Source: Phyto melanocephala (lineage: Eukaryota; Arthropoda; Insecta; Diptera; Rhinophoridae). From it: 64,000 nucleotides of DNA. The position numbers and the translations under genes were made by a program. The notes below the pieces were generated by a model that saw only the letters and a list, made by a program, of their open reading frames with translations, was not told the DNA's origin and searched no databases. Where the stretch lies: the NCBI GenBank assembly GCA_941918925.1, contig OW799233.1:137766223-137830222 (forward strand). The letters run 5' to 3'. Of the stretch, positions 18,889 through 61,450 are shown piece by piece (position 1 is the first letter of the stretch; every line of letters begins with the position of its first letter).

Positions 18889-19767
18889 TTACATGAAATA
18901 ACTGCTAACATATGAAGCAGCTATGATACCCAACACAGTCAAGCATATCAAAATCATAATCTTCTTTCGTCGGGCTTTACTCTGATATTTCAAAGCTTTC
19001 TTTGTATCCTGAGTTGCAGTCTGCACATAGTCCATAGCGTGCTCCACATGGTACTCAATGCGATCGATCATTTCACCCTGTGATTCCACCAACATAGCCA
19101 TATCCATGAACATGTCGTGCAATTCCTTTATCGATGTCTCCAATTTCATAATATCGGCATGACGAGCCTCTATATCAGCCAACGTTTGTTTGGCCTGTTG
19201 TGTTTCCATTATAATGCCCTGTGTAAAGACAGCTGGATTGCCCTGCTCCAACATATCCTCAAGTTCCTCGTTTGTTGTAGCGCGACCGGTGATTTCCAAT
19301 TGACGTTGTATTCTACCCTTACAGCGCTCACGATAATCAGTTTGGGTACGATTGTATTCGGTCATGACCTCAACGAATTTACGTGACAAAGTTGAGTGTT
19401 GAGTTTTACGTATACGCAAATCGGCCGATGATTTATTTTGTTGTTCTTCCTGCTCGATGTTCTGTTCGATGCCTTTTAGTTTGCCTCGCACACGATTGGC
19501 ATTCTTTTTTATGTCGGCCATTAAATCTTCAAGTTCCTGTTTGGTTTTCTCGTCTGACTGTGGGGCGGACAAAATAGCCGAGTGCTTCTTCTTAACTTCT
19601 TCGACATTTTCCTGCACCTTGTCGATCATTCCACGAATTTCTTCGACCTGAGCAAAGAAATCATCCATATACGAGTCATGGGTAGTATCGACATTAACAG
19701 CCACCTCTTCAGCCTCTTCATCATCGGATTGGGCGGCGTGCAAAGCAGCTAATCTGTCTTTTGTCAT
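18889..19767 (-). CDS. Syx1A: Syntaxin-1A (plasma-membrane t-SNARE)
   Basis: This is the Qa-SNARE of the presynaptic membrane. It pairs with SNAP-25 and synaptobrevin to drive vesicle fusion and is controlled by Unc18/Rop, synaptotagmin and Unc13. The ORF gives 292 residues, against about 291 in Drosophila as I recall, and is uninterrupted. Visible parts: an acidic N-terminus; the Habc helices at about 30-155; the linker [20 protein letters not shown]; the SNARE motif at about 195-258 with zero-layer glutamine Q230 in [20 protein letters not shown]; the basic juxtamembrane patch KARRKK at 264-269; and a C-terminal membrane anchor at 270-292 ending SYVSSYFM. The start is supported by family length and the context AAC before ATG. 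GC content is far higher than in the flanks. It lies about 7.7 kb 3' of the last 4EHP exon found, on the same strand. Confidence 0.98.
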
Positions 19768-21510
19768 GTTGCCGGTTAACTTTTACAAATTTCTTATATG
19801 TTTAATATTAACGATTCGTTTTGGAAACGAATTAATTGGTGTTTAAGTTATTTAGGAAAGGTTTTTATGATGTGTTAAAAGTTTCCTATCTTAATAATTG
19901 GGTTTATCTCTATATTAATAAATTTTAGTTATCAATGCCATTTAAACACAGCAACAGAAACAACTTCTTAAAACACTTGCTATTAATTTAGTTTTTTTGA
20001 TTTATGTATTTCATTTTTATTGAATTTTTAATTTTCGTTTATTGATGAAAAGTTTGAGGGAGGGAATTTTTGCAGGTGGTAGTTGTGTTATTGCTGGTAC
20101 TGCTATTTCCAATTGTTTCACTGCCGGGCTTTAAATGTAGAAGGTATTAGTTTTTTTCTGTATTAAAAAACCACACACACACACAGAAAATCTAGACAAA
20201 CGTGACTCACTTTTCTTTTATTTAAATGTAGTTTAATTTTACTTTTTTAACTTTACTAGTTATTTTTTGTAATTCTATTTATGTGTTACGTTACTTCATT
20301 TTTCTAAATTTTTATTTAATTTTACATTTAAATAATTATACATGTATGAATACTTTTTGCTTTATTTTTGAAGTATATTTTATATTTTTGTTATGGTACT
20401 CTTAAACACTCACTGAAAAGAAAATGCTCTTGAAAATTATACATTGACAAACTCTCTCTTAATTTTATACCATTTAGCACTCTCTCTCTTATTATTTACG
20501 AACTTTTGCCTAATTTTTGTTAAGAAATTAACAGAAGTTTTTTATTTATAAAGAATTTATTGAAATTTATATATCAAATATTTTCCTTTTGAAATTATTT
20601 AACTATTTTATGTTTTAAACTTTATAGAATAGAATAACTGCACGTATTAATTTATATTTATCGGTTTGTAATCCAATTTCTTTTTATTTCGTCAATCTTA
20701 TGTTTGTGTATGTTTTAAAGGGATTTTTATCTTTTTTCTTTTTAATATTCTTTATTCAGACTTGTAACAAACACCCAGGGTTGTATTGTTTTAGTATTCA
20801 AAAATTTTCAATCAAATTAATTTTATCAATTAATATATATGGTTAAGGTATTAAATACAATTCTATTATAAATTAATTAGTTTACACGTTTTTAAGCTAT
20901 GTCATTTATATACACATATTATATATGTATATGTGTACATGTTTGCATGACCCAAAGCTGAAATTTTTATGGTGTTGTTGGGCCTTTTTAATCAATGTAA
21001 AAAATCGATTTTCTGCGCAAAGGCTTCGTTCGTTAAGGCAAAAAAAAATAAGATTTTTTTCAGACGGCCGTTTTTTATTTAACAATGTTATTTTTCATTA
21101 ATAAGGGGAACGATATTACGATTTTTTTTATATTTACGCGCGTAGGATCTATTTAATAATTTTTTTTATAAAATTGATACAACGGTGGGTGTTTAATATA
21201 CTTGATAATTATACTTTCAAACAAAAATTTCCTTTATTACTAAAATTTGCACCACTTTTTTAAGGAAAGTAAGCAGCAAATTTTTTGTGTATTAATCAAT
21301 TTTTATTATTATTTTACTACACCCGTTTGTATTTAGAATTATTGTTTTAGGTATTTTACTTTTTATCTCTTTTTTTAGATTTCTAGCAACGCTGCTTTCG
21401 TTGTAAAGGCTTAATCACGACTAACTTGGGGAGCTCTGGTGATGGAATAACCAACTAGAAGAGAAACTTTTTGTTTAAAAAATATATATGAAAATATGAA
21501 CTCTCACAAT
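19768..21510 (-). other. Region upstream of Syx1A (5' UTR/promoter side), no element fixed
   Basis: AT-rich, with a (CA)n tract near 20171-20183. A possible 5' UTR donor (GAAAA then GTGAGT, near 20207 on the minus strand) is too weakly supported to call. The minus-strand stretch 21383-21454 is open for 24 codons behind a good acceptor-like tract and is discussed as a finding. Confidence 0.35.
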
Positions 21511-22692
21511 CAGAGACCTGCGCCGAACACTTTCGGTCGGCAGCGGCGACTTCTGTAAAAATGATCGGCGGCGGCTAAGATTCGGCAGTGAGCCTGCTAA
21601 GTTTCATACACATCAGTAATTTGTTTAAAAAGCAGTTTTATATATGACTTACAATTAAATTTACACAGTTTTATATCAAATTTAATTAATTCACAAAAAA
21701 GACATACACGCTTTATCTTAAATTCATATAATTTCTTTATGGACAAAGTTTTTTGAAGAATAAAGGACTATATTGAATTATTTAAGTTGCATTTATTAGC
21801 AGAAACTATATTGACACGCCTACTTTAACACCCTCTGTCATTGCAAAACATTTTATTAGCAAATCGAAATTACACAAAGAAAGTGATACATATTTTATAT
21901 AAAGAGATTATTCCATAGCGATCACTGCTAATAACAATATTATAAATTTTGTGCTATAAAAGTACATAAAATTGGTGGTGGGTAAAAAAAATTCCGCACA
22001 GCCGAATATAGTGCTCTACTTGTTATATATTAATATTAATATTCATATATATATATATTATATATATTAACTACCGTATTCATAAAAAATATTTAAGGTT
22101 ATTTAAGTCATAGTTGACTAATGTTGTGTAGAAATTTGTCAAATAAGCCTTCAATAAACTTAATTATTTTTTTATGAACACACAGTTATTTTATTTTCAT
22201 TATAATTAACTTATTACACAGAGTAAAAATTATTTTCATAAATTTATTTATTTTTTTTTTAAGCTTCGCTTTTGTAAATTAACATAATTAAGAGTGTTAC
22301 CATAAAAAACGGTGAATAACAGTAAACTTTTCATTAGAATTAGGAATTACCATACTATATTTTAGTTATAATCAAAAAAAGAAAAATTATAACGGTGACA
22401 AAGTTTAAGCCGACACAAAGTCGAAAAATCATCATTGACGGCGACTTTATACGAATGCTCGGGTCAGGTGAGACAGCACTCATGCTGTAATAACATAAGG
22501 TGATAGCGTAAAGGAGAGCAATTTTTCTCTCTCTTTTTTTATGTATGGAGTTTGACAATTTCCGGAGTTGAAATCATTTTTTATATATGTAGTTTGACAT
22601 GCTCCAGAGAACAAAAAAATAATCAGCTGGGCTGGCACCGCCACCTTGTATAATAATTACACCATGATTCAGCCGTTAGGCGCAGGTCTCTG
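21511..22692. mobile_element. hAT-like element with nested family B fragment
   Basis: The ends CAGAGACCTGCGCC and GGCGCAGGTCTCTG are perfect inverted repeats. Both are flanked by CTCACAAT (21503-21510 and 22693-22700), an 8-bp target duplication typical of hAT. The interior left half is GC-richer (GGCAGCGGCGAC), and a family B terminus interrupts it. No transposase frame is visible, so it is a non-autonomous derivative later used as an insertion target. Confidence 0.83.
21690..22023 (-). repeat. Dispersed repeat family B, truncated copy B3
   Basis: Carries the family B words TTGACACGCCTACTTTAACA and AAGAAAGTGATACATATTTT, then GGTGGTGGGTA, the CCGCACAGCCGAATATAG hairpin and CTCTACTTGTT. Only the end carrying the terminal hairpin is present. 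It sits inside the hAT-like element. Confidence 0.75.
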
Positions 22693-32014: not shown

Positions 32015-32160
32015 AGAGCTTCAGATCACTTTTGTTTTTTAATAAAAAAAATTTGGTTAATATAATTTGTATATTTAAACTGATTAAGCTACCCATTGTT
32101 TGGTAACGAAATATTGGTTATTAATAAAACAACAAAACTGATCTTAAGCTCAGCAAAAAG
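32015..32160. repeat. Decayed copy of the 39734-40000 foldback family
   Basis: GAGCTTCAGATCACTTTT at the left, GCTACCCATTGTTTGGTAAC in the middle and AACTGATCTTAAGCTCAG at the right correspond in order to diverged words of the foldback element at 39734-40000. It is shorter and mutated. Confidence 0.6.
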
Positions 32161-39605: not shown

Positions 39606-39733
39606 ATGAACTTGGTACTAAGATTAGTTTAACATTAACCGAAAAGTAAGCTTTTAAAGTTAAAGCATCAATTAACCAAGGCAACCTGTATTAATAAATT
39701 TATTAATTATTTATTATAAATTTATTTGTATAG

Positions 39734-40000
39734 ACAGTTTTTTCTATTGAGCTTGAGATCACTTTTCGTAATAAAAAATAGTTTTAATTTTATTTTCCGA
39801 TGTTTCGCTACCACATTGGGTAGCTTCTTCAGGGAAAGTTTTAACAATTAATAATTAAAATACTAGAATTGTTAAAAAACAAATTTAAAAAAAAACTTTC
39901 CCTGAAGAAGCTACCCAATGTGGTAGCGAAATATCGGAAACTAAAATTAAAACTATTTTCTATTAAGAAAAGTGATCTCAAGCTCAATAGAAAACACTGT
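39734..40000. mobile_element. 267-bp foldback element with ~109-bp arms
   Basis: The left arm 39734-39842 (TTCTATTGAGCTTGAGATCA ... GGTAGCTTCTTCAGGGAAAG) is matched by its reverse complement at 39891-40000, with about 50 bases of loop that can itself pair (AACAATT/AATTGTT). There is little room for anything but hairpin structure. A decayed relative is at 32015-32160. It lies about 950 bp upstream of the TMEM26 start codon. Confidence 0.85.
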
Positions 40001-40953
40001 TAATATAAATTAAAAAGATCGAAAACATTCATTTATTATATTTTTTTGTGTAGGTTTTAACGTAAAATAACATACATATATTTGTTCTCAAAAAGTTGTT
40101 AAACATAGAAAATGGCCGCCAAACATGGACTGTTGTGATTAAGAAACGCTGTTGTAAATATATTGATTTTCTAAATCAGCTCTAACTTTCTTTGGAGCTT
40201 AGACACAGACATTTTAATTTAATAAATTTAAACGTGTGTGTTTATTTTATCATGTTTTTGTGTGAATATTCGAATAAGAAAAACAAAAGGAACTTGTAAG
40301 TGCAAATAACTCTGTACTCCATCCCTATTCCCTCTTCCTCATAGCAAACTTTAGTTTGTACGTGTGGGAGCTGTCTAAGCTTGTATCGTAATAAAATTCT
40401 CAGTCCACAAATTTTGCTTTAACACAGCTAAACTAAGAAACCTTTAGCGCTTAATACTTAGGTTTTTTAAAATATTTTATTTGTAGAAATTTTCTTTTTA
40501 AGAGCAATGAATATAAATATTTTTTATAAATACTTCTTTTTAAATTCCTTACGCATATTTTTAACATATTGTTTCCAACATTAGAAAAATTATTTGCAAT
40601 TAAATATTCTTTGTTAACAAAAATTTGTAATCGAATATTTTTGCTATTAAAATTAAATATCTTTCAAATATCCACAGCACTTACTCTCATTTCAATTTGT
40701 GTTAATAATGAACTTTCCAAGTTAGATCCTGTGCTAAAAATTAATTTGACGATTAGTCTCTGCATTTAGTTGCGTTTTGTGATTCCTCGAGTAAAGTTCT
40801 TTTTCAATAAAAAAAAAATGTTAAAATAAAGTGAAAGTGATTAAAAAAAAATACACAAAAATCATCATCATGCTTTAAAAATTAAACTAATATATTTAAA
40901 AAAATTTAATTAATTTTATTTTTCAAAAATTATGAAATTGTATTTAAGCGAAA
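40001..40953 (+). other. TMEM26 upstream region / 5' UTR
   Basis: AT-rich with no mobile ends. A GC-richer pocket at about 40320-40440 (TGTACGTGTGGGAGCTG) could be near the promoter, but no TATA/Inr could be assigned. The 66-codon frame 40569-40769 has no motif. Confidence 0.35.
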
Positions 40954-46900: not shown

Positions 46901-48000
46901 ATTGGCCACCAAGATCATGTTATTGAAAGCCGTGTGATTTTTTTCTTGGGATTTTATGAAATCTCGGCTTTATGCGAATAAACCAGAAATAATTCCGGAG
47001 CCCAAATCCATGATTCAATGCATCAGGGATGAGAAACTGCCTCATCTCTGTTAAGAAATACGTGTTTTTATTTTGAAATTAAAAAGTGTGTTCCTACTGA
47101 GACACCCTTTATTAAATACTTTGCATGTATTTTATAATTTCAGGTAAAAATTCTCTGGTGATTGTTTTACAATTGTACCGTTTGTACGTTGTAAATGCTG
47201 AATTTTGGAAAAATCGCCGAGAACAAAAAGTTGCTTCCAAGCAACGTCAATACAAATCAAAACGTCGCAATAATGATGATCCAAATGGTATTTATATGAT
47301 CTCATCGGATCGTGGAACTGAAATGAGAAGAAAGATTAAGAGGTATTAAAACGTAATTATTTAAAAGTTTTAAGAGATCTTTTTACACATTGTTTCTTTC
47401 AGAGCTAAAGAATATTCAGACGATGAAGTTGTCTATAAAAAGAAAGCCAAAAAAGATAAGTAAGTTTTGTTAAAAATTTAATTCTATGAAATCATAACAA
47501 GAATTACAATTCTCAAATTACAGGAGTAAAAAACGCAAACGTAAGGATACTGGCTATTCTACAGCTAGTTCGCAAAATCTTTACTCCACTAAAGTTGCGC
47601 AGGAGAAGGGATCTCGAAGAAAGGATAAAAAGGGAAAGAAAAGTAAAAGAGATCGCAGTAAATCGCCATGTAGTAGTGATATTGTAGAAGCACGAAAGTC
47701 CAAACATGCCAAAAAGTCTGATAAATCAGAAAAGAAGTAGGTATTCTGATAATAAACTTGTGCACTACATCTAGAATTAACACAATAAATTCATTTTTAA
47801 AATTTAGAAAATCTAAACGAATTGAAGCCGTTATCGAAGAATCTAGTAGTTCCAGCAGTACATCGGATTCTAGCAACTCTACTCTACCCAGTTATGAAGT
47901 CATTAATGAAAAAAAATCCAAATCGAAACGACGCAAACACAATTCGAGTTCCTCGTCAACATCAACGGATTGTTCTGATAATTCAACTTCGGATTCTTAA
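40954..48000 (+). CDS. TMEM26: TMEM26-family multipass membrane protein, 8 coding exons
   Basis: Exons: 40954-41147, 45427-45713, 45812-45992, 46065-46219, 47144-47342, 47403-47459, 47524-47736 and 47808-48000. All junctions are GT-AG, phases agree at each join, and the sum is 1,479 nt (492 residues plus stop). Segments in the order of vertebrate TMEM26: IIFSAHSIIAIYQVV; YWSLTAPLLLLLFEGIFTIF; WRWFCPSVFLYLASIVPAIW followed by LLEF; QFLMLILIVGRWMLPKGDLT followed by RDQLSQLLLVYIGTAADIIE; VYLTLGIWSWSLLQFTIVL; WGIVLNVILQDAPFLTFRLL; and FFTCKNSLVIVLQLYRLYVV. About eight membrane helices are predicted within residues 1-300. The remaining roughly 190 residues are a charged tail with Lys/Arg clusters and Ser runs (EESSSSSSTSDSSNST) not found in the human protein as I recall it. 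Cellular function is poorly known. Introns 1 and 4 carry mobile elements. Exons 6-8 rest on splice signals and phase only. Confidence 0.92.
41868..42845 (+). repeat. Dispersed repeat in TMEM26 intron 1 (CTAGCCGCCCGTTACGTGCT type)
   Basis: Starts ACTAGCCGCCCGTTACGTGC and TTCGCTACG, and ends with GGTTCGGATAGGTGAGCCCG, TTCTTAAGTTATAA and TTTTTATATATACAG. Inside, a block with GAGATACTGAGTTACC...TTTTA(C)TC recurs about three times (near 42065, 42345 and 42650). I recall similar start and end phrases from dispersed repeats of many insect genomes, but the class is uncertain. Confidence 0.55.
43100..43390 (+). repeat. Degenerate dispersed repeat family A copy in TMEM26 intron 1
   Basis: Shares ordered words with family A: CATATCTCAG, GGCTTCAAAAAGTTAATTAC, ACACGGACAGACGGAC, CTATCTATAAGG, ATACTTTATAGGCTC and TGTAGAAATTTAAAATGGAA. 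Both terminal hairpins are lost. Confidence 0.6.
44163..44800 (-). pseudogene. mariner-like transposase relic in TMEM26 intron 1
   Basis: Read on the minus strand: RKIVFSDKAHF, LNGYINK.NCRIWGEE, an interrupted middle, VDMWIQQDGVTCHTAREIMD, then QNGPVSWPPRSCDLTPF and VVRNWIR. These are the catalytic blocks of the same Tc1/mariner-type family as 57412-58046. Stops and frameshifts are frequent, so it is an old copy. It is antisense to TMEM26. Confidence 0.85.
46265..47110 (+). mobile_element. Decayed mariner-like element in TMEM26 intron 4
   Basis: The terminal inverted repeats AAAGGGTGTCTCAGTA and TACTGAGACACCCTTT are perfect over 16 bases. The interior holds broken transposase-like pieces: FYNICKSYAETACRLHRIFS near the start, MDLDDMWSPETPLL near 46797, and KSRLYANKPEIIPEPKSMIQ near 46960, the last matching the family's C-terminal KD.VYADKPQTID region. 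The 70-codon frame at 46390-46602 is part of this relic and not a host gene. Confidence 0.78.
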
Positions 48001-48112
48001 AAAAAAAACAAAACTTGTCTTAAGGTTACTTTCTAAATGAGAGTTTCTTTTATCAAACTAAAAATTTTGTATTGGAAAAAATCTCTTTTAAAATTGGAGA
48101 TTTAAATTTGTC
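48001..48112 (+). other. TMEM26 proximal 3' UTR without polyadenylation signal
   Basis: No AATAAA or ATTAAA occurs between the stop codon and the flanking direct repeat of the palindrome that follows. The nearest AATAAA lies inside the palindrome near 48288. Confidence 0.55.
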
Positions 48113-48127
48113 ATATAAATCGTAAAC
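48113..48127. repeat. Left 15-bp direct repeat flanking the large palindrome
   Basis: ATATAAATCGTAAAC, identical to 49885-49899. Interpreted as a target-site duplication. Confidence 0.75.
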
Positions 48128-49884
48128 ATTTAATAATATTTATTTGGTTGTTGGGTTTAAGCTGGTTTATATGCATTTCACTGGTGCTTATGCCAGATCA
48201 TCAGTAAACCTTTACCCAAATTCTTGAAAAAGTTTAAAATGTTATAAGTTATATTTTCAAATTCTCATTAACAAAATGAGAATTCAAAAATAAAACAAAA
48301 AACTATAAAAAACTTTTTCAAAAACCCAACCAACAATTTTTCAATTTTAATTTATTTTATTTTTCTAATCCCCTCTGCATTTGGCTAACCGTTGGTTAAC
48401 ACTAAATGCCTAGAGGGACAACCGAAAAATAAAATCTTCTTTTATTATATATTTACTAAATTATTCGGGATATGCTCCCTTAATTTTTCAATAATATTTA
48501 TTTGGTTGTTGGGTTTAAGCTGGTTTATATGCATTTCACTGGTGCTTATGCCAGATCATCAGTAAACCTTTACCCAAATTCTTGAAAAAGTTTAAAATGT
48601 TATAAGTTATATTTTCAAATTCTCATTAACAAAATGAGAATTCAAAAATAAAACAAAAAACTATAAAAAACTTTTTCAAAAACCCAACCAACAATTTTTC
48701 AATTTTAATTTATTTTATTTTTCTAATCCCCTCTGCATTTGGCTAACCGTTGGTTAACACTAAATGCCTAGAGGGACAACCGAAAAATAAAATCTTCTTT
48801 TATTATATATTTACTAAATTATTCGGGATATGCTCCCTTAATTTTTCAATAATATTTATTTGGTTGTTGGGTTTAAGCTGGTTTATATGCATTTCACTGG
48901 TGCTTATGCCAGATCATCAGTAAACCTTTACCCAAATTCTTGAAAAAGTTTTTTATAGTTTTTTGTTTTATTTTTGAATTCTCATTTTGTTAATGAGAAT
49001 TTGAAAATATAACTTATAACATTTTAAACTTTTTCAAGAATTTGGGTAAAGGTTTACTGATGATCTGGCATAAGCACCAGTGAAATGCATATAAACCAGC
49101 TTAAACCCAACAACCAAATAAATATTATTGAAAAATTAAGGGAGCATATCCCGAATAATTTAGTAAATATATAATAAAAGAAGATTTTATTTTTCGGTTG
49201 TCCCTCTAGGCATTTAGTGTTAACCAACGGTTAGCCAAATGCAGAGGGGATTAGAAAAATAAAATAAATTAAAATTGAAAAATTGTTGGTTGGGTTTTTG
49301 AAAAAGTTTTTTATAGTTTTTTGTTTTATTTTTGAATTCTCATTTTGTTAATGAGAATTTGAAAATATAACTTATAACATTTTAAACTTTTTCAAGAATT
49401 TGGGTAAAGGTTTACTGATGATCTGGCATAAGCACCAGTGAAATGCATATAAACCAGCTTAAACCCAACAACCAAATAAATATTATTGAAAAATTAAGGG
49501 AGCATATCCCGAATAATTTAGTAAATATATAATAAAAGAAGATTTTATTTTTCGGTTGTCCCTCTAGGCATTTAGTGTTAACCAACGGTTAGCCAAATGC
49601 AGAGGGGATTAGAAAAATAAAATAAATTAAAATTGAAAAATTGTTGGTTGGGTTTTTGAAAAAGTTTTTTATAGTTTTTTGTTTTATTTTTGAATTCTCA
49701 TTTTGTTAATGAGAATTTGAAAATATAACTTATAACATTTTAAACTTTTTCAAGAATTTGGGTAAAGGTTTACTGATGATCTGGCATAAGCACCAGTGAA
49801 ATGCATATAAACCAGCTTAAACCCAACAACCAAATAAATATTATTGAAAAATTAAGGGAGCATATCCCGAATAATTTAGTAAAT
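48128..49884. mobile_element. 1.76-kb palindrome built from five or more 358-bp units
   Basis: The left half holds two full direct copies plus a partial third of a 358-bp unit (starts at 48132, 48490 and 48848; recognisable by TGGTTGTTGGGTTTAAGCTG and CCTCTGCATTTGGCTAACCG). At about 48951 the sequence flips: the right half is the reverse complement, again two units plus a partial. Arms of about 820 bp (48132-48951 and 49028-49845) surround a 76-base centre that is itself the unit's central segment in inverted orientation between short GAAAAAGTT/AACTTTTTC repeats. The copies look almost identical. No coding sequence. It begins 127 bases after the TMEM26 stop codon. Confidence 0.9.
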
Positions 49885-49899
49885 ATATAAATCGTAAAC
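49885..49899. repeat. Right 15-bp direct repeat flanking the large palindrome
   Basis: Exact copy of 48113-48127, ATATAAATCGTAAAC. Confidence 0.75.
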
Positions 49900-50277
49900 T
49901 TTTAAAACGATTTTAAAATTATTTTTAGACAAATTGAAAATTTGTATTAACGCACTTTGGCGTTAAATTTGTATAACTTATTAGAAAATTTGCTATTAAA
50001 GTTATTTTGTAAAGTTAAATTAACGAAAAAATTTTTAATAATTATAGGAACTATACTAATAAACAAATTTTAACAAAATTAATAACCAAATTTTCAGTTT
50101 TTAATTTTTCGTAAATGCTTCTCTTTAGTTGTATTTATTTAATATTAGAGTTCACACTTCATTCGACGGTTGTCATTTGATTATTTATTGTTTAAAAAAA
50201 TACAAACTAACGGCTTAATTTTTAAAAATTATCAACAGCTTTATTAAACTTAATAAATTAATTTAATTTTCGTTTTA
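49900..50277. other. AT-rich spacer
   Basis: Possible distal TMEM26 3' UTR; an AATAAA occurs near 50059. Nothing else was recognised. Confidence 0.4.
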
Positions 50278-50376
50278 ATGAAAAAGACCGCAAAACTTTT
50301 TATTCGTTTGATCACTGCAACATCGGCAAAGGAAACATTTCACGAATCAGTCACAGATATTGAAAGTGAAATCTAA
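50278..50376 (+). CDS. Candidate 32-residue small ORF (unrecognised)
   Basis: ATG at 50278 gives MKKTAKLFIRLITATSAKET followed by a short acidic end (SVTDIESEI). The N-terminal half is basic and amphipathic, like a mitochondrial presequence. The ORF is richer in GC than its surroundings, and a stop follows in all frames soon after. I recognise no family. It could be a short mitochondrial protein, a first exon, or chance. Confidence 0.25.
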   Translation: MKKTAKLFIRLITATSAKETFHESVTDIESEI

Positions 50377-51457
50377 AATTCAGTTTTAGATAATTGTATT
50401 GAATGTTAAATTGTAGAAAAATCAGAAATTTGAACTAAATATTTTTTATACCCTTCACACAGTGAAAAAGGGTATATATAGGTTTGTCATTCCGTGTGAA
50501 ATTTCTACAATTTTGATTTCCGACCCCATAACCGACCGTCTGTCCGTGTGTATGTTGAAATCAACTTTTTGTAGCCCCCAGACATCGCTTGGACTCGGGT
50601 GAGGTATTAAAATATCAGAAATATTCGGGAGTAGATCGCTATTGAAAATCAGAAACATCGGTACATAAACAACTGAGATATGAGCAAAAACCCACGACCA
50701 CCTCGATTTTTTTTTCACAAAAACAACATTACAACAACAACATACATACATACAAACGTGTATACTGGTTAGAGAAAATGTGGCATCGAATCCCAGCTGA
50801 GCAAAAAAAAAATTTTTTTTATTTTTTTTTTAAATTTTTTTTTATTTTTATACCCGCCACCAAAAAAATGGTGGGGGTATATTCATTTTGTCATTCCGTT
50901 TGTAACACATCGAAATATCCATTTTAGACCCCAGAAAGTATATATATTCTGAATCAGGGTTTGATTTGATGACGATCTAGCTATGTCCGTCCGTCTGTCC
51001 GTCTGTTGAAAGCACGATAGAGGTCGCACCGAAAAAGCTAGGGGGCTCAAATTTTGCCAGAATCTTTCTTATAGACAAGGTTTGTTTGGTATTGAAAATG
51101 GGCTAAATCGGAATATTAGGAAGAGAGTTATAGCTCGAAAAGCAAGAGTAGGTCGAAAAAACCGTGTCCTTCGAACATCGAATAAAATGGAATTGTGTCC
51201 AAACGCCTTAACGGAGACTCATGAAACTTCGAATATATATTTCCTACGTAAAAACAATATTTTTCCCCGAAAATTATCTAAATCTATGCATTAGGAGAGG
51301 AGTTATCGATCAAAATGTACGAAAATTTATACCGCACAGTGTATTTTTCGGTATATTTAAAAACAAAAACGTCATAAAAGCAACAAAATTGAATGTACGA
51401 CTCTGAAATTTTGCGCACTTTGCTTTTTGGTGAGAGGCTTTTCTGTAACGGAAAATC

Positions 51458-52340
51458 AATGTGCCACGCCCACTTTTACGCCCACCTCCCATATAACGTT
51501 TTACTCAAAATTCATATAATTTCTCTATTAATAAAGATTTTGGAATTATAAAGGGCTATATTGAAACTCCTAAGTTATACTCATTCGCAAAAATAACTTT
51601 GACACGCCTACTATAACGCCCACTTTTCACGTTACAAACCGTTAATGTAATTTAAAAGCTCATAAAACCGCCAAAATAAGAGGTATGATGATCAAATTTG
51701 CTACGTATATCCCCCTCGGCATTGTCATTGCTATGCCAGAAAATTAAGGTGCCACGCCCACTTTTACGCCCACCTCCCATATAACGTTTTAACTAAAATT
51801 CATATAATTTCTCTATTAATAAAGATTTTGGAATAACAAAGGGCTATATTGAAACACCTAAGTTGTACTCATTCGCAAAAATAACTTTGACACGCCTACT
51901 ATAACGCCCCCTTTTTACGTTATAAGCGGTTAATGTAATTTAAAAGCTCATAAAACCGCCAAAATAAGAGGTATGATGATCAAATTTGCTACGTATATCC
52001 CCCTCGGCATTGTCATTACTGTGCCAGAAAATTAAGGTGCCACGCATACTTTTACGCCCACCTCCCATATAACGTTTTAACTAAAATTCATATAATTTCT
52101 CTACTAATAATGATTTTGGAATAATAAAGGGCTATATTGAAACACCTAAGTTGTACTCATTCGCAAAAATAACTTTGACACGCCTACTATAACGCCCAGT
52201 TTTCACGTTATAAACCGTTAATGAAATTTCAGAGCTCATAAAACCGCCAAAATTAGAGGTATGATGATCAAATTTGCTACGTATATCCTTCTAATCAATG
52301 ATATTGTTGTGCCAAAAAGTTTAGGTGACACACCCACTTT
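51458..52340. repeat. ~287-bp tandem repeat array inside family B copy B1
   Basis: Three well-matched units start at about 51461, 51750 and 52037 with GTGCCACGC followed by TACTTTTACGCCCACCTCCC or a close variant, and a diverged fourth starts at about 52322. Each contains GGGCTATATTGAAACACCTA, TTTGACACGCCTACTATAAC and GAGGTATGATGATCAAATTT. Copy B2 carries the same array in inverse orientation. Confidence 0.85.
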
Positions 52341-52480
52341 AACGGTTTATCTTAAATTCATGTAATTTCTCTATTGACAAAGTTTTTGGGAAAATAAAGG
52401 ACTATATTGAAATATCTAAGTTGTATTTATTAGCAGAAACTTTATTGACACGCCTACTTTAATGCCCACTTTCATTGAAA

Positions 52481-57232: not shown

Positions 57233-58152
57233 AAGGGTGTTTTTTTAAGCCCGATAGAACTTGAAATTGTAAAAAATAACACAAAAAATTAAATTGTAAT
57301 CAAAATTTTTTTTTTATTCGAAAGATCAATACGTGACATTAACATTTGAAAATGATTTCGGGCATATGGGCACCGCGGCTGTTCTTGACGAAGCGCATTC
57401 TGGACGTCCAATTTTATCGCAAAATTGTGTTCAGCGATGAGGCGCATTTTTGGCTTAACGGGTTTGTTAATAAGCAAAATTGCCGCATATGGAGCGAGAC
57501 CAATCCACAAGAGACCCTACAGACTCCATTACATCCAGAAAAATGCACCGTTTGGTGCGGTTTTCACGCTGGTGGCATCATCGGACCTTATTTCTTCAAA
57601 AATGAGGCCGGAGCTCGCGTTACGGTCAATGGAGATCGTTACCGCACCATGATCAATGATTTTTTGTTTGAAAATATGGATGACATTGATCCGGAGGAGA
57701 TGTGGTTTCAACAGGATGGCGCTACGTGCCATACGGCGAACGCAACCATCGACTTATTGAAATCAAAATTTGGCGATAAGTTGATTTCGGGAAATGGACC
57801 AGTCAATTGGCCTCCAAGGTCGTGCGATTTGACACCTCTCGATTATTTCCTGTGGGGCTACGTGAAGTCACTGGTTTATGCTGATAAACCAGCAACAATT
57901 GACGCCTTGGAGGCCAGCATTGTTCGTGTTATTCGTGACATACGGCCAGCAGTGCTCGAAAAGTGGCCCAAAATTGGACGTCCAGAATGCGCTTCGTCAA
58001 GAACAGCCGCGGTGCCCATATGCCCGAAATCATTTTCAAATGTTAATGTCACGTATTGATCTTTCGAATAAAAAAAAAATTTTGATTACAATTTAATTTT
58101 TTGTGTTATTTTTTACAATTTCAAGTTCTATCGGGCTTAAAAAAACACCCTT
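57233..58152 (+). mobile_element. mariner-type element with 183-bp inverted ends made from its own 3' end
   Basis: 57233-57415 and 57970-58152 are near-perfect inverted copies, starting AAGGGTGTTTTTTTAAGCCC and flanked by TA (57231-57232 and 58153-58154). The right arm is the natural 3' end of the transposase gene (ASRGGH-type ending, here KNSRGAHMPEIIFKC) plus the 3' UTR. The left arm is the same sequence flipped, replacing the gene's promoter and N-terminal DNA-binding half. The element is therefore a 920-bp deletion derivative with a foldback-like structure. Confidence 0.88.
57412..58046 (+). pseudogene. Tc1/mariner-type transposase, C-terminal catalytic part
   Basis: A DDE transposase that would cut and paste DNA at TA sites. 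Visible blocks: FYRKIVFSDEAHFWLNGFVN with the first catalytic Asp, KQNCRIWSETNPQE, FHAGGIIGPYFFKNEAGARV, MWFQQDGATCHTANATIDLL with the second Asp, NWPPRSCDLTPLDYFLWGYV with the third Asp, then VYADKPATIDALEASIVRVI. I count 36 residues between the second and third Asp. One base is missing near 57964 (GAAAAGTGGCC), shifting the frame. The next frame then ends NWTSRMRFVKNSRGAHMPEI and IFKC, stop at 58044-58046. The N-terminal helix-turn-helix half is absent. Confidence 0.88.
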
Positions 58153-59490: not shown

Positions 59491-61450
59491 AACAAGTAAG
59501 AGCACTATAGTAGGCTGTGCCGAATCTTTTATACTCACCACCAGTTTTCCGTTCTTTTGTAGCTAGGTTTTTTTTCCGAAAATTTTTGTTTCCCGGAAAT
59601 GCGAGATTTATTTTTTAATATCCCGGGATCCCGCAACAAAACAAATAAAAAGTAAATTTGTTTTTATTAAAAAAAAACTTTTTATTAAAAAGCATAAAAT
59701 AGTTTATAATGTAAAAGAAACACTTCAAAACTAAAAAAACCAAAAACGAAACTTGAATTTAAAATATAAATTGAGTAAAAATATTTTTTATTGAAAAAAA
59801 TATTATTCTCTAGATAAGAGATCAAATATGAGCACAAAAATACAGGTACTTTAGCTATGAGATCAAAAATAAAATCATTATAATTCAATTTTAATATAAA
59901 CAATAAAAACATCTGCTTTCGAATCGTAGCCACCGTTTTTATTTCCCGGGATCCCGAAATATAATCCCGGGAAATCAGGAAGATTAAATAACTCAAAATC
60001 CTGGAAAATAACCCAATTTATAGCACAAAATGTATTTGTTTGTTATTAACAGTAATCGATATGCAATAATCTCTTTATACTAAAATATGTATCACTTTAT
60101 TTGCACAACTTCGATATGCTAGTAAAATGTTTTCGTAAATTTAGTCTTTCAATGGAAGTGGGCGTTAAAGTAGGGGTGTTGAAGTTGTTTCTACTAATGA
60201 ATGTAACTTAGATGTTTCAATATAGTTCTTTATTATTCCAAAATCTTTTTTCATAGAGAAATTATATTTAGGCGTCACCTAAATTTTCCGGCGTAACAAT
60301 GACATTAACTAGAAGGATATAATTAGCAAATTTCATCATCATACTTCCAAATTGGTCGGTTTTATGAGCTTTTATATTTCGTTAAGAGTTGATAACGAGA
60401 AATGTGATCGTAATAGTAGGCGTGTCGAAGTTGTTGTAGTCTTTCAATGAAAGTGGACGTTAAAGTTGGCATGTTGAAGTTGTTTCTACTGATGAATGCA
60501 ACTTAGATGTTTCAATATAGTCCTTTATTATTCCAAAATCTTTATTCATAGAGAAATTTTATGAATTTGAGATAAACCGTTATATGGGAGGTAGGCGTTA
60601 AAGTGAGCGTGTCACCTAAATTTTCCGGCATAACAATGAAATTAACTAGAAGGATATCTGTAGCAAATTTCATTATCGTAGCTCTAATTTTGTCGGTTTT
60701 ATGAGCTTTTAAATTTCATTAACGGTAGATAACGTGAAAAGTGGGCGTAATAGTAGGCATGTCGAAATTATTTTTAATATTGAATGCAACTTAGATGTTT
60801 CTATATAGACCTTTATTATTCTAAAATCTTTATTCGTAGAGAAATTATATGGATTTAAGTTAAGACGTTATATGGGAGGTGGGCGTAAAAGTGGGCGTGT
60901 AACATCTATTTTCAGTTAGAACAAAGAATTTGACCAAAAAGCCATGTGTGCAAAATTTCAGAGTCGTACATCTAATTTTGTTGCTTTTATGAAGTTTTTG
61001 TTTTTAAATATACCGAAAAATACACTGTGCGGTATAAATTTTCGTACATTTGATCGATAACTCCTTTCCTATGGAATAGATTAAGGTAATTTTTGGGAAA
61101 AATATTGTTTTTTACTTAGGAAATATATATTCGAAGTTTCATGAGTCTACGTTAATGCGTTTGGACACAATTCGATTTATTCGATGTTCGACCTACTCTT
61201 GCTTTACGAGCCATAATTCTCTTCCTTATATTCCGATTTAGCCCATTTTCAATACCAAACAAACCTTGTCTATAAGAAATATTCTGGCAAAATTGGAGTC
61301 CCCTAGCTTTTTCGGTGCGACCTCTATCGTGCTTTCAACAGACGGCGAGACGGACGGACATAGCTAGATCGTCATCAAATCAAACCCCGATTCAGAATAT
61401 ATATACTTTATGGGGTCTAAAATAGATATTTCGATGTGTTACAATGTGTT
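59491..61450 (+). mobile_element. Dispersed repeat family B, copy B2 with internal insertion
   Basis: Begins AACAAGTAAGAGCACTATAG, then GGCTGTGCCGAATCTTTTAT and ACTCACCACCAG, i.e. the shared A/B terminus in reverse orientation to B1. Diverged tandem units follow (GGGAGGTGGGCGTAAAAGTG, ATATGGGAGGTAGGCGTTAA), then CGGTGCGACCTCTATCGTGC, GACGGACGGACATAGCTAG and TTTATGGGGTCTAAAATAGA. The far hairpin end is missing. More diverged than B1, so older. Confidence 0.78.
59561..60012. repeat. Segment with TCCCGGGATCCCG words inside family B copy B2
   Basis: CCCGGGATCCCG occurs near 59623 and 59946, with TTTCCCGG/CCGGGAAA relatives at 59591, 59943 and 59965, surrounding an AT-rich interior of about 300 bases. 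The words are palindromic, so orientation cannot be given. It appears to be a separate repeat inserted into family B. Confidence 0.5.

Follow-up and report, generated by a model that had tools for sequence, protein, structure and literature searches.

How can a short stretch of DNA come to stand in a genome as tandem units followed by the same units in the opposite orientation, with one and the same 15-bp sequence on both sides? This question is raised by positions 48113–49899 of a 64-kb stretch of the Phyto melanocephala genome, the whole of which is hereafter called the window. Penelope-like elements (PLEs) are a third large class of eukaryotic retroelements, and it is their route of insertion that is at stake here. 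What stands in the window as a palindrome is a tiny non-coding element that was inserted recently. We consider it probable that this element is a metazoan retrozyme, which a PLE moved in trans by rolling, target-primed reverse transcription of a single circular RNA from both strands of the target. With less assurance, but on balance in favor, we read the insertion as the fossil of a two-armed PLE reaction, in which the 3' ends of a staggered cut engaged the same circle at fixed sites about 43 nt apart.

Anatomy of the Palindrome

The block contains two inverted arms of 823 nt (48129–48951 and 49026–49848), which differ at a single position and are separated by 74 nt; the palindrome is real and far beyond chance. 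A preliminary description had reported 358-bp units within a 15-bp flanking repeat, and both are confirmed. Direct units of 358 bp make up both sides, about 2.29 on the left and 2.66 on the right, and at a lag of 358 no mismatch is found except at the array edges and just beyond the inner junction. Unit positions are numbered here from the first nucleotide past the predicted ribozyme cut on the sense strand, which is the plus strand of the right half.

The left target-site duplication, ATATAAATCGTAAAC, occupies 48113–48127 and is followed by four additional nucleotides (48128–48131) before the first base of the unit; within the window this 15-mer occurs only at 48113 and 49885. The left array (48132–48951, minus strand) lies antisense to the ribozyme, and its outer end is at unit position 38 (start site 1). 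It carries three antisense hammerhead copies, with putative extents of 48149–48221, 48507–48579 and 48865–48937 and cores at 48204, 48562 and 48920, respectively. At the inner junction (48940–48951), a 12-nt microhomology, TTGAAAAAGTTT, is common to the ends of both arrays. The right array (48940–49890, plus strand) runs in the sense direction as far as start site 2, where its outer end falls on unit position 83, and contains hammerhead copies at 49040–49112, 49398–49470 and 49756–49828, with predicted cuts at 49091/49092 (GAAATGCATA^TAAACC), 49449/49450 and 49807/49808. The right target-site duplication (49885–49899) shares its first six nucleotides (ATATAA) with the unit. The 15-mer marks the boundaries as first described, apart from these six shared bases and the four extra ones on the left. 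Two further points of the first description need correcting: the two arrays overlap by 12 nt at the inner junction, and the block is not a symmetric palindrome, because its outer ends sit at different unit positions (38 and 83).

Elsewhere in the window, Syntaxin-1A is encoded on the minus strand at 18892–19782, with 97–98% identity to proteins named from Stomoxys and Glossina, which points to a calyptrate fly as the host. A 288-bp tandem repeat with GTGGGCGT-like motifs is found at 51451–52344, 60156–60992 and 21708–21836, the copies at 60 kb being inverted and about 69–85% alike. A 238-aa open frame at 57343–58059, presumably resembling a mariner transposase, gave no Pfam match at an E-value of 0.1.

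The 358-bp Unit and Its Hammerhead Motif

The unit is 358 bp long, has a GC content of 26.5% and is non-coding. Among frames of at least 40 aa (translation table 1), the longest from stop to stop in the insertion spans 58 aa, and since no frame exceeds this length the insertion is not itself a PLE. By our own reading of the sequence, each unit appears to carry a type I hammerhead-ribozyme motif, consisting of CUGAUGA, a CUGG/CCAG stem with its loop, GAAA, a very short stem III made of the palindrome AUGCAU, and a two-part stem I formed by the flanking halves (GGUUUA/UAAACC and UUGGGU/ACCCAA). In this same reading, the base of stem II shows a U.U opposition, and stem III has only 2 bp. A descriptor requiring at least 5 bp in stem I, at least 4 bp in stem II with a free first pair and at least 2 bp in stem III, with G-U pairs allowed, matched only the six unit copies on both strands of the window, and one of 20,000 first-order Markov sequences of 458 nt. 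An Rfam scan of 47000–51000 returned no hammerhead at E-values up to 1, and a single irrelevant weak match. Across the window piece and 38 further loci, 185 of 186 copies keep an intact core, a count that decayed copies escape because it requires one of four exact seeds and at most eight differences.

The isolated ribozyme is not predicted to be unusually stable (minimum free energy z −0.73). Folded as a circle, the monomer reaches −93.1 kcal/mol, compared with −57.3 kcal/mol (sd 5.2) for 100 shuffles (z −6.8). The predicted circle holds a short hairpin at about 49–61, between the two start sites, and a strong hairpin at about 108–160. The 358-nt unit may be cleaved by its ribozyme and exist as circular RNA; self-cleavage and circular monomers are reported for other metazoan retrozymes.

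Copies in the Genome and Their Two Fixed Outer Ends

A search of the genome (739,753,867 bases in 9 contigs) gave at least 406 matches to the unit, with 40 of 1,074 candidates scored. The window and 38 other loci were read; as the latter were drawn from the best-scoring matches listed, old copies are under-represented. Antisense-then-sense pairs are present in 29 of the 39 loci (window included), on six contigs, and number 30 by seeds and 31 by BLAST; ten loci lack an inverted pair by the seed method. The opposite order, sense then antisense, occurs between neighbors only once, in the rearranged locus L062. In the seed pass, the two halves of a pair are unequal in length, and each holds from 0.23 to 12.61 units. 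Three loci at 67.64–67.69 Mb of contig C1 (L033, L034 and L035) carry arrays in a single orientation and look like segmental duplicates, because their left junction is identical (unit position 320).

The outer ends of the pairs are not scattered over the unit. When BLAST ends were trimmed to eight exact bases, 29 of the 31 pairs had one outer end near position 38 (site 1) and the other near position 80 (site 2), with site 1 on the left in 20 pairs and on the right in nine. If each end had picked its site independently with a probability of one half, 29 mixed pairs among 31 would be expected with P = 2.3e-7, the site ranges (25–60 and 65–105) having been chosen after the ends had been seen. The exceptions are L049, with site 1 at both ends and lacking a duplication, and a degenerate pair of L062 that fits neither site. 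The seed-based pass agrees, with 26 mixed pairs among 28 classed and two unclassed. In that pass L067 had appeared to have two site-2 ends, owing to a stray seed, and the trimmed BLAST ends were used instead. As part of the two-armed reaction, we lean towards the view that each target strand uses one start site.

Target Duplications and Putative Primer Pairing

Of the 31 pairs, 26 are bounded by an exact repeat of 12 bp or more, as opposed to 21 of 930 mispaired flanks, in keeping with the earlier proposal of a single insertion with target duplication. The sequence of this repeat varies from locus to locus, so that the 15-mer is not part of the element. Nor is its length unusual, as had been supposed: gross duplication lengths in the 26 pairs are 13–18 bp, plus one of 24 bp, and 23 of them fall within 13–16 bp, which makes such a duplication ordinary for this family. 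A staggered cut of 13–16 bp is proposed because the duplications have that size. At each end of these 26 pairs, a median of 3 nt is common to target and unit (means 2.1 and 3.1, range −5 to 10, negative values denoting extra bases), compared with a chance mean of 0.54. We read these shared bases as the place where the tip of each target 3' end paired with the RNA.

A Probable Single Template, Copied over Many Turns

Single insertions bear their own variants throughout both halves. In L032, C>T at position 61 is present in every covered unit of the two arrays (17 in all); in L061, A>G at 80 and T>C at 110 in all 21; and in L063, A>G at 78 and A>T at 85 in all nine. All substitutions were compared in 25 of the 31 pairs, at least 12 nt from the array ends and with L042, L049, L062 and L065 excluded, and every one that is fixed in at least two covered units of one half recurs in the other half (19 of 19, from 12 insertions). 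In the same comparison, 24 substitutions form the majority on both sides of the junction, whereas 68 are confined to one half. The latter include 23 from the BLAST piece of the window, which overruns the junction, as well as 15 from L056 (positions 248–345) and seven from L068, which we read as alignment failures; the remaining 23 are borne by one unit or a minority of units, or lie in halves where just one copy is covered. This comparison supersedes an earlier count on 14 sites picked post hoc, with 23 concordant and 4 discordant cases within insertions and 83 and 1033, respectively, between insertions. The single-unit signature favors a circle over a multimer as the template, though not decisively.

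The units of the two arrays in the window are identical, which bears out the recent date first assigned to the event. Gene conversion, then offered as a means of keeping the arms alike, is unneeded, because each arm can be read as a copy of one and the same template.

Certain private variants are repeated in only a few units, namely at a spacing of three in L060, in three adjoining units of L061 and in two units of L032, and could reflect later duplication or a multimer template. In the left array of L060, 225+T and 157G>C appear together every three units, a spacing that could stem from a trimeric template or from later duplication.

Inner ends cluster as well. Positions 149–179, which adjoin the strong hairpin at about 108–160, hold 26 of the 60 inner ends, compared with 5.2 expected. 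At the 30 inner junctions the halves overlap by 1–12 nt in 12 cases, meet flush in three and are separated by filler of 1–23 nt in 15.

Penelope-Like Elements in the Same Genome

A search for the GIY-YIG domain at E-values up to 1 gave 118 matches, many of them weak, with open frames of up to 859 aa; the best match is presumably the host gene SLX1. Several of these frames follow each other at tandem periods of about 3.06 kb. Among 28 neighboring pairs within 10 kb, 18 are minus-then-plus, six minus-minus, four plus-plus and none plus-then-minus, and hence all 18 inverted neighbors among these putative PLEs stand head-to-head, a layout that the unit pairs share. The pLTR-ORF start has at least 40 matches (40 of 756 candidates scored), all 40 of which are full length, hence they offer no end statistics; neighbors within 15 kb among them include five minus-then-plus pairs and no plus-then-minus pair. 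A protein search with the PLE N-terminus found one 99-aa relative, and Pfam gave nothing for it at an E-value of 0.1. In L058, no PLE pLTR was found next to a GIY-YIG match.

A solo-pLTR insertion in L042 (3605–4071) belongs to the same family as the PLE stretch L069 (95.9% identity over 74 nt). It has perfect arms of 158 nt and a 13-bp duplication, TAAACAAATCGTC, and ends at L069 positions 25 and about 67–70, that is, about 42–45 nt apart; the spacing of the start sites in the unit is about 43 nt. It also contains a hammerhead-like motif, whose cut would fall about 58 and about 100 nt before the two ends. Between the unit and the single L069 stretch compared (401 nt), a short motif is all that is common, and it is out of register with the start sites. 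This motif, TTGAAAAA..GGGAGCA, had been considered as homology of the start sites and was set aside as evidence, because L042 puts it out of register, PLE site 2 corresponding to unit site 1. Its controls were weak as well, since matches as good or better occurred in 30 of 2000 Markov sequences and 3 of 305 window segments, or, under a simpler scoring, in 54 of 2000 Markov sequences and 196 of 2000 flank windows. We infer that a PLE is the mobilizer of the retrozyme units.

Further traces of PLEs were observed in the window and beyond it. An older head-to-head solo-pLTR copy of the same family lies at about 39714–40048, with a possible 10-bp duplication, ATTTATTATA, two hammerhead-like cores near-identical to that of L042 and BLAST pieces of 78–87% identity, and a decayed relic of the same PLE pLTR (about 71% identical) at 32040–32160. 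At G000:C2:133170364-133181710, seven minus-strand pLTR-ORF starts are followed by seven on the plus strand at a spacing of about 0.82–0.93 kb, which looks like a large head-to-head array of a non-autonomous PLE derivative. At G000:C1:71691598-71715935, nine plus-strand starts stand in tandem, about 3.02 kb apart.

Proposed Mode of Insertion and Competing Explanations

The preliminary description had set the insertion apart from hAT, mariner and standard LINE elements and had proposed nick priming or template switching; its negative part stands, and of the two modes it is nick priming that is supported. On the whole its interpretation was right in part; neither the hammerhead ribozyme nor the pair of fixed start points was noticed in it, nor the connection with PLEs. 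In the sequence of events that we propose, transcripts of an existing array would be cut at the ribozyme, and the 358-nt monomer would close into a circle. The reverse transcriptase/GIY-YIG endonuclease of a PLE, the presumed enzyme, would cut AT-rich DNA with a stagger of 13–16 bp and so provide two 3' ends. Both of these may then prime on one circle by pairing over a few nucleotides, giving rise to the ends observed at about 38 and 80. Each cDNA would run inward, for the 0.2–12.6 turns now seen in the arrays, and often halt at the edge of the hairpin at 108–160; the stops themselves are observed, and the hairpin is their probable cause. Finally, the cDNA ends would be joined by microhomology or filler, which may be how the observed order of antisense units, junction and sense units within a target duplication was reached.

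The same structure might arise from a single cDNA, primed at the target, that folds back where it has a native inverted repeat and, by self-copying, yields the inverted half. Self-priming of this kind on an antisense template has been proposed for rotifer PLEs (PMC3846280); the inner junction in the window falls on 12 nt that also occur, inverted, within the native unit, and 12 of 30 inner junctions overlap by 1–12 nt. Such folding predicts a variable second outer end, whereas both ends are fixed and different in 29 of the 31 pairs, and filler at 15 of 30 inner junctions, with three more flush, also speaks against it. Because the second outer end is fixed, we regard self-copying as very improbable. 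It is less far-fetched, yet still unlikely, that two-sided priming used a linear multimer RNA, left uncleaved after its transcription from an array already in place, in which case the ribozyme would not be needed. RNA of the Anolis PLE with a dead ribozyme inserts equally well in vitro, and unprocessed RNA is taken there as the dominant substrate (PMC11167929); the repeated private variants of L060, L061 and L032 accord with a multimer, which could yield the same arrays if the source array were uniform. On the other side are the insertion-specific variants found in all covered units of both halves (19/19), as predicted for a template of one unit, and the intact ribozyme core in nearly all seed-bearing copies (185/186). 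That a satellite array was inverted by recombination after insertion, or that the palindrome is an artefact of assembly, is scarcely credible. Palindromes and tandem arrays are in general prone to both, but inverted pairs recur at 29 loci, spread over six contigs; their arms are unequal, their outer ends fixed and their target duplications mostly locus-specific, many of these loci have variants of their own, and a fold-back read artefact yields neither a target duplication nor unequal ends. The two-armed reaction on one circle thus remains the reading that we prefer.

Comparison with Known Systems

As described in the portion of PMC7229834 used here, metazoan (non-LTR) retrozymes have a type I hammerhead, tandem units of 150–450 bp, low GC and no long ORF, as well as target duplications of more than 4 bp, PLEs in the same genome and a highly paired predicted circle. 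The 358-bp unit fits this class (Cervera and de la Pena 2020) in hammerhead, size, GC, lack of coding, duplication, presence of PLEs and fold of the circle. Tandem arrays are described there; head-to-head palindromes, a fixed pair of ends and a single-template signature for each insertion are absent from that portion. The word 'inverted' is absent from the main text of PMC7229834, in which insects appear once, in a list. The class of element is already known. The rule of one start site per strand is absent from the literature examined and unstated among the matches listed for retrozymes and PLEs, which are mostly open-access and are represented by titles and the openings of abstracts.

The insertions also resemble PLEs of the Penelope/Poseidon type: repeats stand head-to-head inside a target duplication, only one end has a 'tail' (about 30–45 nt), a hammerhead motif precedes two internal start sites, and the targets are AT-rich. 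They differ in that the unit encodes no reverse transcriptase or endonuclease, that its ribozyme is distinct in sequence from that of the local PLE pLTR, and that its duplications measure 13–16 bp, compared with 8–10 bp in rotifer PLEs (PMC3846280). There, the PLE 'tail' is described as optional and located at one of the inverted pLTRs, antisense self-priming is proposed, and the choice between this and sense RNA is left to future work (Arkhipova 2013). The Anolis PLE protein cuts and extends both target strands, uses two adjacent internal start sites and forms its 'tail' from the stretch between them (Frangieh 2024, PMC11167929); the later steps of insertion were left there to be validated. 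As no strand difference in start-site use was seen for the Anolis enzyme in vitro, the rule of one site per strand is not predicted by that work (PMC11167929).

The inverted form of the present insertions, found in 29 of 39 loci with both start points fixed, distinguishes them from the products of LINE-1 twin priming. In twin priming, two cDNAs are initiated from both target strands on one RNA and joined head-to-head with microhomology, but this is a minor side product that inverts the 5' end and uses a linear polyadenylated RNA.

Because the unit is short and repeated, each insertion reveals both cDNA starts, the lengths of the runs and the common template. The question of how PLEs insert thus becomes testable by counting in genomes that carry retrozymes, and in the purified Anolis PLE system. 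If the reading favored here is true, the optional 'tail' of PLEs and their head-to-head structure would be the outcome of one asymmetric reaction of a dimer, in which neither self-priming nor an antisense template would be needed.
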